Shown here piece by piece: positions 5,523 to 63,374 of a stretch of 64,000 nt of DNA. The position numbers were made by a program, and so were the translations under genes. How positions within the stretch are numbered: position 1 is the stretch's first letter; every line of letters starts with the position of its first letter. Location of the stretch: assembly GCA_002840835.1 (NCBI GenBank), contig PHCQ01000009.1:60061-124060 (forward strand), written 5' to 3'. This DNA is from Betaproteobacteria bacterium HGW-Betaproteobacteria-16. Lineage in GTDB: Bacteria; Pseudomonadota; Gammaproteobacteria; Burkholderiales; Burkholderiaceae_C. The notes beneath the pieces were generated by a model, which was not told where the DNA came from, did not search any database, and was given only the letters and a program-made list of their open reading frames with translations.

Positions 5523-5630
5523 CTTCCAAGGGCATCAAGGGTCCGGCTCCGCCGGCCCAAGATGCCGTCCCCCCTCCAAGCCGAAGGCGCAAGAGAGGGG
5601 GGGAAGACGCGTCAGCGGCGCAGGGGGGAG
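5523..5630 (-). repeat. Structured intergenic repeat, copy 1 (orientation exception)
   Basis: Read on the minus strand this copy has the C-run/G-run hairpin and the nested hairpin with outer stem GGCATC/GATGCC (plus-strand arms 5531-5536 and 5561-5566) and inner stem CCGGC-GGA-GCCGG. It lies in the 326-bp gap between the SRPBCC and ferredoxin genes. It is the only copy not downstream of an obvious gene in its own orientation. On the minus strand it would follow the stop codon at 5638 of a dubious 64-codon frame. Confidence 0.85.
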
Positions 5631-5637
5631 CCTCCTG

Positions 5638-5832
5638 TTATCCCCGCCCGCACTGGACAAGCTTGTGCATAACTCGGGGCAAGTTCTGTACGGCGCACGC
5701 AAGTACCTGATCTGTTTGGGTAAAGTTCAGATTGCCTGTTGAACAGGCAGCTTCACCATCTTCGCAATGGCCACCATGGAGCCGCATGCCAGCACCCCTC
5801 ACGACAGCCACTGAAACGTCCCGCCTGATCAA
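5638..5832 (-). pseudogene. Dubious small ORF or gene remnant upstream of repeat copy 1
   Basis: This 64-codon minus-strand frame ends with TAA at 5638, eight bases before repeat copy 1, which is the spacing repeat copies show behind real genes elsewhere in the window. Its 5' part overlaps the ferredoxin gene on the other strand and the product has no recognisable domain (C-terminus NLPRVMHKLVQCGRG). It could be the 3' remnant of a lost gene that carried the repeat, or a chance frame. Listed because repeat orientation is its only support. Confidence 0.2.
5733..5749. promoter_or_regulatory. 17-bp perfect inverted repeat upstream of the ferredoxin gene
   Basis: TGCCTGTTGAACAGGCA is a perfect palindrome with a single central base, ending 36 bp before the ferredoxin start codon. 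Its size and position suit a dimeric repressor or activator site. It does not match the usual LexA spacing (CTGT-N8-ACAG), and I cannot assign a regulator. Confidence 0.45.
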
Positions 5833-6121
5833 GCTGGTGCCTTCCGGCCAGTCCGTGCAATGCGAACCCGGACAGACCCTGTGGCAAGCGCTTCAGCTGG
5901 CCGGTGTGGCCTGGCCCGTCTCGTGTCGCAATGGCAGCTGTCGCACCTGCATGGGCCAGTTGGTTCAGGGCCGTGTGCGTTATGCCATTGAATGGCCGGG
6001 TTTGCTGCCAGAAGAAAAGGCCGAGGGCTGGGTGCTGCCCTGTGCGGCCTATCCCGCGTCCGATCTGGTGCTGCGCGGGCCAGCGGCCACCAGCGTCAGG
6101 CCGGCGGAAGATGCTGCTTGA
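5786..6121 (+). CDS. [2Fe-2S] plant-type ferredoxin
   Basis: This 111-residue protein has the cluster motif Cys47-x4-Cys52-x2-Cys55-x30-Cys86 (CRNGSCRTCMG followed by VLPCAAYP), as in plant-type ferredoxins and oxygenase-reductase ferredoxin domains. It is a soluble single-electron carrier; the partner is unknown because no oxygenase or reductase gene is adjacent. The ATG at 5786 was preferred to the track's TTG at 5732, which lies beside a perfect palindrome. Its 3' end overlaps the convergent dienelactone hydrolase gene by 26 bp. Confidence 0.85.
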   Translation: MPAPLTTATETSRLIKLVPSGQSVQCEPGQTLWQALQLAGVAWPVSCRNGSCRTCMGQLVQGRVRYAIEWPGLLPEEKAEGWVLPCAAYPASDLVLRGPAATSVRPAEDAA

Positions 6122-6989
6122 AAAACGCCAGCGTGCGTTCCCAGGCCAGCTTGGCCGCTGCTGCGTCGTAACGGGGTGTGGTGTCATTGTGGAAGCCGTG
6201 CTGGGTGCCCGGGTACCGGTGGGCGATGTACGCCACGCCTGCCGCCTGCAACGCCGCTGAATAGGCGGGCCAGGCGGCGTTGATGCGTTCGTCCACATCG
6301 GCAAAATGGATCATCAGCGCCGACTGCACCTTGGCCGCATCTTCCACCGGTGGGTGGTTGCCATAAAACGGCACCGCCGCTGCGAAGTCGGACCGCTGGG
6401 TGGACAGCATGTGCGCAATGCCGCCGCCGTAGCAGAAGCCCACCACGCCCATGCGGCCTGAGCCATCCGGCCGCTTGTGAAGCGCATCGGCCGCGGCCAG
6501 AAAGTCCTGCCGGGTCTTGGTCTGGTCCAGCTGGGCGAACAGGGCGCGAGCCCGGTCTTCGTCGCCGGGGTAGCCACCGAGCGGCGTGAGCGCATCGGGT
6601 GCAAAGGCCACATAACCTTCCAGCGCCAGTCGCCGGGCCACATCTTCAATGTGTGGGTTGAGGCCGCGGTTCTCGTGCACCACCATCACTCCCGGCAGCT
6701 TCGGCGTTCCGGCTGCGGGCTTGGCCACATAGACCTTGATGGTGCCGTGCCCCAGCGGAGAAGGCACCTCTTCGGTCACGATCAGCAGGCGGGGATCGTC
6801 CTTGGGCACCACCTGGGCCGCTGCGAAGTCGGGGCTGAGCGCGGCGAGCAGGCCGACTGCCGTGAGTCCACCCACAGCGAATTTGCCGGCCCGATCCAGA
6901 AAACCTCGGCGATCGATGTCGCCGTGCACATAGGCGTCAAACAGGATCAGCAGTTCCTGATCAAAATCAGCGGCTGTGAGTCGGTTCAT
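6096..6989 (-). CDS. Dienelactone hydrolase family protein, Tat-exported
   Basis: This alpha/beta hydrolase of 297 residues has the nucleophile motif GFCYGGG (Cys186) typical of dienelactone hydrolases, with an Asp in HFADVDERI and a His in GTQHGFHND completing the Cys-Asp-His triad. The N-terminus has RRGFLDRAGKF before a hydrophobic stretch ending AAAQ, so the enzyme is probably exported folded by the Tat system, as in YghX-like members. The ATG giving MNRLTAAD was chosen, with a GGGG-rich ribosome-binding site. The natural substrate is unknown. Confidence 0.82.
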   Translation of the reverse strand: MNRLTAADFDQELLILFDAYVHGDIDRRGFLDRAGKFAVGGLTAVGLLAALSPDFAAAQVVPKDDPRLLIVTEEVPSPLGHGTIKVYVAKPAAGTPKLPGVMVVHENRGLNPHIEDVARRLALEGYVAFAPDALTPLGGYPGDEDRARALFAQLDQTKTRQDFLAAADALHKRPDGSGRMGVVGFCYGGGIAHMLSTQRSDFAAAVPFYGNHPPVEDAAKVQSALMIHFADVDERINAAWPAYSAALQAAGVAYIAHRYPGTQHGFHNDTTPRYDAAAAKLAWERTLAFFKQHLPPA

Positions 6990-61139: not shown

Positions 61140-61446
61140 GGGAGTTTCGCCTGAGATAGCCGCGGCCAGGAGGGCCGCGCAACCCTGGATTATCCCCTCA
61201 GAGCTTGCATCGCCTTCGTCAGGGCGCCTTCAAAGCGGCGAATCGCGCACTCGTGCGACAATACGGGCTGTTGGGCACATCAGTTGGCCCGGCACCAGCC
61301 TTTTGCTGGGGTGAGCGCAATTCACTTGCTGCCACCAACTTCCTGAATCCATCTGCCCCAGACTGACCGGGACCCGCTTCCAACAAAGAGGCGACGACCG
61401 GAGTGGCCGATGCCCCCAGCGCCCTGGACGGGCGCCTCAAAAAACA
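61140..61446 (+). other. Divergent gap and probable long leader of the rhlE-type helicase
   Basis: This 307-bp gap separates ettA (minus) from the helicase gene (plus). It includes a small stem (CCAGC-CTTTT-GCTGG near 61295) but no ORF or terminator. A long leader would fit cold-shock or autoregulated DEAD-box helicase genes; this is inference. Confidence 0.4.
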
Positions 61447-63255
61447 ATGACCTTTGAAGATCTGAATCTGGCCCCGGCCATCGTGCAAGCTGTGCGCGAG
61501 CACGGTTATGAAACTCCCACCCCCATCCAGGCCGAGGCGATTCCCGCCGTTCTGGCCGGGCGCGACTTGCTCGGAGGCGCCCAGACCGGCACCGGCAAGA
61601 CCGCCGCCTTCACCCTGCCCCTGCTGCACCGCCTGAGCGAAGGCGAGCGCGCCAAGAACCGTTTTGGCGGCGTGGCCATACGCGCCCTGGTGCTCACCCC
61701 CACCCGCGAACTGGCGGCCCAGGTGGAAGAGTCGGTGCGCACCTACGGCAAACACCTCACGCTCACCTCTACTGTGGTGTTTGGTGGCGTTGGCATGAAC
61801 CCGCAGATCAACGCCATGAAGCGTGGCGTCGACGTGCTGGTGGCCACCCCGGGCCGTCTGCTCGATCTGCAACAGCAAGGCTTCCTGGATTTGTCTGGCG
61901 TGCAAATGCTGGTGCTCGACGAAGCCGACCGCATGCTCGACATGGGGTTCATCCATGACGTGAAGAAAATTCTGGCGCTGGTGCCCAAGGAAAAGCAGAG
62001 CCTGCTGTTCTCGGCCACCTTCAGCGACGAAATCCGTGATCTGGCCAGCGCCCTGCTCAAGGACCCGCAACACATCCAGGTGACCCCGCGCAACACCACG
62101 GTGCAGCGCATCACGCAGGTGATCCACCCCGTGGGTCGCGGCAAGAAGAAGGCCCTGCTGGCGCACATCATCAACCAGCACAACTGGAGCCAGGTGCTGG
62201 TGTTCACCCGCACCAAGTTCGGCGCCAACAACGTGGCCGAGTTCCTCACCAAGAACGGCATCCAGGCCATGGCGCTGCACGGTAACAAGAGCCAGGGTGC
62301 CCGCACCCAAGCGCTGGCCGGATTCAAGAGCGGCGACATCCGCGCCCTGGTGGCCACCGACATCGCGGCGCGCGGCATCGACATCGACGAGCTGCCGCAT
62401 GTGGTGAACTATGAAATCCCCAACGTCAGCGAAGACTATGTGCACCGCATCGGCCGCACCGGCCGCGCCGGCAACAGCGGTGAAGCCGTGAACCTGGTGA
62501 GCCTGGACGAAGAAGGCTTCATGATGGACATCGAACGCTTCACCAAGCAACAGATTCCGGTGCAGATCTTCCCTGAGTTCATGCCCGAACCCGGTGAAAA
62601 GGCCGAACCCATCGCCATGGGCCGCCAGACCATCTGGGGCGGCGCGGGCAAGCCGCCGAGCCGCGACGTGATGGCTGCTGCTGCCAAGGCCGCCCGCACC
62701 GAAATGCTTCAGCGTGTGCGTGAGAAGAAGGCCGGCGAACCACAAGGCCGCGGCAACGGCGGGGGCGGCCAGCGCCAGCGCCCCGCTGGTGATGGTGCCC
62801 AGATCGACGGTCCTCGCGGCGAAGGCCGCCGGGGCAACGGTGGTGGTCAGCGTGCGAACGGCAACGGCGGTGGCAATGGACAGCCGCGCCATGGCGGCAA
62901 CCGCAACGGCGGGCCGGGCCAGCGCCCTCCGCGCCAGCAGGCCGACCGCGGTGACCGCATGGACCGCCCACCACGGGAAGATCGTGGACCGCGTGAAGAG
63001 CGCGAACCCGGCGCCGAGCGCCAGCCGGGACCCAACGCCCATCTGGGCAGCCTGCGCATCCGCGAGCCCCGCCCCCGCTCTGCCGCGCCGGGAGGTCAAC
63101 CTGATCCGCTGCGCACCAGCATCGATGCCATGCGCTCGGGCAACCGCAGCGGCAAAGGCGGCGGTGGAGGTGGTGGTGGCCGGGGTGGCTCCGGCCCGCG
63201 TGGCCAGGGCGGCCCGGCCGATCCTCTGCGGACGAGCTTCGGCAGGATCAGGTAA
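61447..63255 (+). CDS. rhlE: DEAD-box RNA helicase, RhlE type
   Basis: This 602-residue helicase shows Q motif and AQTGTGKT (motif I), PTRELA (Ia), DEAD (II), SAT (III), ARGIDI (V) and [10 protein letters not shown] (VI) within the first 380 residues. The C-terminal 200 residues are Gly/Arg/Pro-rich (RGG-like repeats), an RNA-binding tail. It unwinds RNA, with roles in ribosome assembly or decay. A 688-codon frame on the other strand is a composition shadow. Confidence 0.93.
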
Positions 63256-63261
63256 CAGGCT

Positions 63262-63374
63262 ACCCCCCGCGCCGCTTCGCGTCACCCCCCTGGAAGGGGG
63301 GCGATGCCTTGGACCGGCGGAGCCGGATCTTCGGCATCTCTGGATCAGGCACTTCGCTCCGGAAGCGGGCTGGT
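63262..63374 (+). repeat. Structured intergenic repeat, copy 9b (after rhlE)
   Basis: This copy starts seven bases after the rhlE stop. It has CGCGCCGCTTCGCG, CCCCCCTGGAAGGGGGG, outer stem GATGCC/GGCATC, inner stem CCGGC-GGA-GCCGG and tail CACTTCGCTCCGGA, and fills the convergent gap to the cupin gene. Confidence 0.92.

Follow-up and report, generated by a model that had tools for sequence, protein, structure and literature searches.

A dispersed three-hairpin repeat of the Burkholderiales behind stop codons and its possible role at message ends

What is the role of a folded DNA element that recurs, copy after copy, directly behind stop codons? The question was raised by a 64,000-nt stretch of the genome of Betaproteobacteria bacterium HGW-Betaproteobacteria-16 (contig PHCQ01000009.1, positions 60,061 to 124,060), here called the window, which had been picked without regard to repeat copies. 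A first-pass annotation of this window had described about nine copies and a truncated one of a structured intergenic repeat, and had proposed selection on base pairing and a function at mRNA 3' ends. The element is a dispersed non-coding repeat family of the Burkholderiales. In the best reading, to which we give about an even chance, it is REP-like but a separate family and would act as a structure at mRNA 3' ends or between cistrons.

Structure, distribution and position of the repeat

In the reading direction of the gene upstream, the unit consists of a C-run, three hairpins, the motif TGGA and a weakly conserved tail. Hairpin 1 has the form GCCGC-TGAC-GCGGC with variants, its arms being, e.g., GCCGC/GCGGC, GGCGC/GCGCC or AAGCGC/GCGCTT. 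Hairpin 2 pairs a C-run with a G-run; long copies have a further stem inside it, short copies lack this inner stem. Hairpin 3 is nested, with a variable but paired outer stem enclosing an inner stem of the type CCGGC-GGA-GCCGG. Units are about 80-110 nt long, the short type 80-85 nt, with a median of 93 nt in this genome and about 80 nt in a second bacterial family of the order. Their GC content in this genome was on average 75 % (64-84 %).

A blastn search with the copy at 5523 yielded 57 places in the genome, while a covariance model built from 35 copies (R1) revealed at least 148 places among 150 scored candidates and, at E ≤ 0.01, 161 copies in 539 kb of this genome. Forty-five of about 159 copies were close to another copy, and tandem arrays were present in genome G327. 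The repeat was found in all 35 other congeners scanned, and a family-wide scan, in which at most 19 candidates were scored per genome, detected it in 122 of the 201 genomes and in 89 of the 126 genera. Among the other families of the order, matches were obtained in a single one (f4), in 22 of 121 genomes and 7 of 42 genera. Plasmid carriers were Comamonas testosteroni, Burkholderia anthina and Achromobacter pestifer; a contig search with the exact pattern of the f4 subtype had Achromobacter marplatensis as sole named carrier. The repeated family of high density seen in the first-pass annotation is real and larger than reported.

Relative to genes called by codon usage, 151 copies were placed in this genome, and in 143 of them the C-run end faced the stop codon of a gene on the same strand. 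Between co-directional genes, 92 copies were sense and 8 antisense to the upstream gene (p 3e-19); convergent gene pairs enclosed 51 copies, divergent pairs none. Sense copies outside tandem arrays started within 15 nt of the stop codon in 87 of 101 cases. For co-directional spacers, a distance of at most 10 nt was observed in 61 of 73 copies, where uniform placement within the spacer predicted 27.3 and the highest of 20000 simulations reached 41; for convergent spacers it was 21 of 28 against 9.6 expected. TGA, TAG and TAA were all found before the element, and the gap of 0-10 nt between stop and C-run was little conserved. The same rule of sense orientation and stop adjacency recurred in other genera, in f4 and on plasmids: two copies on IncP plasmids of different hosts (L303, 2501-2608; L304, 2501-2607) lie in catabolic operons, 3 nt past the stop of a catechol 2,3-dioxygenase gene. 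Both parts of the rule had been stated for the window copies, and they hold more strongly than was noted then.

Covariation between the stem arms was significant. The 35 copies of this genome contained 51 paired double-change cells versus 13.4 ± 3.1 after shuffling, and in slid structures, serving as control, at most 54 % of the cells paired. In 102 copies from several genera of two families, 426 double-change cells stood against 104 ± 12 in shuffled alignments; they affected 24 of 32 pairs, and 96.2 % of 2969 cells were paired versus 82.4 % after shuffling and at most 54 % in slid controls. These shuffle tests ignore the relatedness of the copies. A test that takes the tree into account, modelled on R-scape, was therefore added, with a FastTree tree, redistribution of substitutions along branches, a G-test with average product correction and 40 null alignments. 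Eight of 5253 column pairs exceeded all 210120 null values, and all eight were predicted pairs, the outer stem of hairpin 3 contributing four, hairpin 1 three and the closing pair of hairpin 2 one. The fit of the alignment to the structure biases the test in its favour, but hairpins 1 and 3 leave the alignment little freedom. An absence of significant covariation, by which the first-pass annotation would have been refuted, was thus not observed. Folded as RNA, a long copy close to the consensus gave the three hairpins at -67 kcal/mol (z -3.2). A short copy folded scarcely better than its own shuffles (z -0.9), thus the case for structure rests on covariation and not on energy.

Copies in the window and their history in relatives

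A nhmmer profile of genome-wide copies, which takes in the 5523 and 41973 copies and leaves out the other eight window sites, matched all ten sites listed for the window (E 1e-31 to 1e-3). R1 yielded nine full matches (E < 1e-4), the tenth site being truncated; all sites of the first-pass annotation are thus present, and they have a common layout. As it had described, the arms of the outer stem change together (e.g., GATGCC/GGCATC, GACACC/GGTGTC), and all copies but one lie just past a stop codon in the sense of the gene.

The sole exception to the stop rule in the window is the long-type full copy at 5525..5628 (minus strand, 113 bits with R1), 467 nt from the stop (6096) of its sense gene. 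In the corresponding spacer (5459-6096), genome G024 has a sense copy directly past the stop of the orthologue of gene 4989-5459, and the copy of this genome points the opposite way. Further long-type copies are located at 30719..30816 (minus, 89.8 bits), 8 nt past the stop of a 2OG-Fe dioxygenase-like gene (30825-31565, minus), at 41973..42073 (plus, 100.9 bits) after an ABC ATPase gene (stop 41940), and at 56484..56584 (minus, 78.7 bits), 1 nt past the stop of a DUF1631 gene (56586-58664, minus). Short-type copies are found at 7149..7230 (minus, 36 bits), at the stop codon that ends a glutamate-cysteine ligase gene (7230-8804, minus, by Pfam), at 15107..15190 (plus, 56 bits), 7 nt behind a thiolase stop (15099), and at 63262..63344 (plus, 65.9 bits), 6 nt past the stop of gene 61447-63255 (plus). 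A fourth short-type copy, 3 nt past the stop of gene 59478-61139 (minus), had been placed at 59363 and really occupies 59395..59474 (minus, 64.2 bits). The copy reported at 41095 starts with its C-run at 41060 (41060..41154, plus, 35.8 bits); it lies in the permease/ATPase spacer of an ABC transporter operon, between the stop codon and the ribosome-binding site. The second, truncated unit at 42109..42149 (plus, nhmmer E 0.00076) consists of hairpin 1 alone. Ahead of the intact 41973 copy, positions 41946-41972 are the remnant of an older, internally deleted copy, and a similar remnant was observed in L133 upstream of 17161. Such internally deleted remnants before intact copies are a sign of tandem recombination.

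The occupation of single sites differed among relatives. At the ligase gene, the element was present in this genome only, 1 of 30, and missing in 29 congeners. Past gene 61447-63255, the sister species G649 has the element too, two further species have a different subtype and most others have none. The 41060 element is shared by this genome, where the spacer (41053-41196) measures 144 bp, and by G649; in three relatives the spacer has 12-15 nt. The two occupied versions are separated by two double changes from C-G to T-A pairs and by one change that is unpaired. Altogether, G649 kept the element at 10 of 11 comparable sites. Some of its sites carry a copy of another subtype or a truncated or rearranged one, as expected of tandem recombination or conversion. 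The 30721 copy is missing in G649, which keeps GAACA directly ahead of the C-run position; this is suggestive, and for the definition of exact insertion boundaries no empty site was close enough. Copies persist for long between sister species, whereas their occurrence among congeners is patchy.

A second repeat family of other sequence (CCCCCACGCTCC...CCCCCCGAGGGGGC...TTGGGGCGGCCCGGC) was observed with the same layout: C-run, hairpin, C/G hairpin and nested hairpin with a freely varying paired outer stem. It starts 4-9 nt past stop codons. Examples in this genome are L130:13314 (plus), L148:821 (minus) and L155:5963 (minus), those in relatives L282:8291 (plus), L288:2075 (minus) and L292:2039 (minus). 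Behind the DUF1631 gene, relatives have this second repeat family where the window has the main one.

Possible function at message ends and alternative explanations

As a structure at the 3' end of mRNAs or between cistrons, the element would be transcribed as a part of the messages. Its stacked GC-rich hairpins may block 3'-5' exonucleases, by analogy to REPs, and may serve to mark the end of the message upstream or to stabilise it, also inside operons. Because the element begins so near to the stop codon, it is perhaps a brake on terminating ribosomes, which might be slowed or stalled as reported for E. coli REPs. Spreading would occur rarely via some copying route, and arrays may grow and shrink by tandem recombination. 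Several observations weigh against this reading. The rule of orientation and stop adjacency could reflect where insertions are tolerated, and the turnover of sites between congeners shows that the element is dispensable at each single site. Furthermore, A-C cells are the G-U intermediates of the other strand, so selection on the sense RNA should give a clear excess of G-U over A-C. In counts that leave out one pair with a U-G consensus, 35 G-U versus 18 A-C cells were obtained across taxa (p 0.03) and 41 versus 33 in this genome (p 0.4), a weak RNA-strand signature that does not decide the matter.

Tolerance of insertions is central to the alternative that survives best, possible although rather doubtful: the repeat is first of all mobile DNA, a MITE- or REP-like unit moved by some enzyme, whose sense copies near stop codons survive since other insertions harm genes, start sites or promoters, and whose structure is the folded single-stranded DNA substrate of the enzyme. 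The hundreds of copies, the patchy sites, occupied and empty versions of one spacer, the plasmid copies, different subfamilies at one site in sister species and the weak strand asymmetry of the covariation are in line with mobility. However, uniform placement was rejected by the spacer-length null, and an antisense insertion past a stop codon should be equally tolerable, yet is rare. Neither terminal inverted repeats nor target duplications were seen; direct repeats in the flanks measured 4.67 nt versus 4.51 nt in mismatched pairs, a comparison in which the element ends are uncertain and a short duplication could escape. Mobilisation by a RAYT was rejected, as the presence of Y1_Tnp was unrelated to the presence of the repeat in 201 genomes (Fisher p 0.31), 26 genomes having the repeat without such a gene, and no copy lay within 1.5 kb of the only Y1 gene of this genome. 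This RAYT-like Y1_Tnp gene (L031, 1501-1794) is situated just upstream of a gltB-like gene. Single Y1_Tnp genes are common across the family.

The covariation had been called strong evidence for selection on base pairing. Its significance stands, but G-U cells hardly exceed A-C cells, and template switching at the DNA level, proposed to create and mend hairpins (PMC8794818), may explain a part of it. Taken further, the paired changes would owe most to mutation: during replication, template switching at quasi-palindromes would write the sequence of one arm into the other, and covariation then says little on selection or RNA. In favour of this explanation are the described mechanism, the near balance of G-U and A-C, and about 130 single-branch double changes from Watson-Crick to Watson-Crick pairs versus about 27 steps to G-U, a count inflated by long branches and by recombination among copies. 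We consider it improbable nonetheless: it leaves sense orientation and stop adjacency unexplained, hairpin 1 has the same length and place across families in spite of a replaced sequence, and the branches of the repeat-family tree are long and poorly resolved. Quite unlikely, too, is a copying system that sets the folded element directly behind stop codons in sense orientation, guided by transcription or translation, so that a repeatedly renewed set of mutually similar mRNA ends extends over the genome; the second three-hairpin sequence family would then be a convergent counterpart. Least probable is a transcription terminator at gene ends, Rho-independent or Rho-linked, for although the 3' location, the GC-rich hairpins and the convergent gene pairs suit it, and a bidirectional terminator had been suggested at first, a U-tract is missing (TTTT after 2 of 158 copies, background 1.3 %), the majority of copies lie between co-directional genes, the 41060 copy is internal to the ABC transporter operon and the plasmid copies are inside catechol operons; terminator action is unlikely.

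Comparison with known repeat families

A search against Rfam 15 gave no match at the gathering score in the window, and in seven related loci no match appeared at E up to 1. The first-pass annotation had not recognised a named family, and that the repeat has no name is probably wrong, since the Beta-proteobacterial repeat element (BRE) agrees with it in size and GC content, in its tandem arrays and in its hosts. According to Hot et al. 2011 (PMC3110155), full-length BREs have 75-91 bp and a GC content of about 69 % (64-79 %), are mostly intergenic with some overlap of gene ends, form tandem arrays, were possibly mobile in the past and have no known function. They occur in Comamonadaceae and Alcaligenaceae with up to 29 copies per genome, and an 80-nt transcript was detected for the BRE region BprJ1. 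The present repeat agrees in the length of the short type (80-85 nt) and in GC content (64-84 %), in tandem intergenic copies and in its carriers Comamonas and Achromobacter, while the long type is longer. It differs in number, 161 copies in 539 kb against at most 29 per genome, and the BRE paper gives no structure, orientation or stop-codon rule. No copy was found beside lexA, the place of a BRE in Bordetella, at 22 lexA loci of repeat-bearing genomes, among which B. pertussis and its relatives may not be represented. The repeat is probably BRE, as matched by these descriptions and not by sequence. Only if both are the same family is transcription of a related element on record, with BprJ1 (PMC3110155).

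ERIC, NEMIS/Correia and other MITE-like intergenic repeats have been described as structured, dispersed and possibly once mobile (PMC3110155). The present family is alike in these respects; target duplications were not found and terminal inverted repeats not seen for it. Integron attC sites are folded sites directly past the stop codon of a gene. The repeat resembles them in this position, and an attC identity was rejected, as the core boxes RYYYAAC and GTTRRRY were both present in 0 of 157 copies.

The REP elements and BIMEs of enterobacteria and the GTAG/CGTC REPs (PMC3733652, PMC12306157) are likewise extragenic palindromes with hundreds of copies close to the ends of genes. Stalling of ribosomes has been reported for REPs that lie within 15 nt of a stop codon, and REPs have been described as a 3' barrier on mRNA (PMC3733652, PMC12306157). 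A REP is a palindrome of 14-40 nt, whereas the present unit has three hairpins in 80-110 nt, a strict sense orientation, no GTAG tag and no RAYT link. The REP/REPIN tag was rejected on its frequency, GTAG occurring in 28 % of the copies versus 39 % in the background. A distance of at most 15 nt from the stop codon was observed for 86 % of the copies here (87 of 101) and for 11 % of E. coli REPs (446 of 4072) in the RepRanger survey (PMC3733652, PMC12306157). The repeat is a REP analogue, not a REP. In a repeat family that is present over most genera of a large bacterial family, in sense orientation, at most 10 nt from stop codons, with covariation in a tree-aware test and with no transposase link, an effect on message ends and terminating ribosomes is directly testable. 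REP-like repeats have long been known; the present family offers a clean case to separate RNA selection from template switching.

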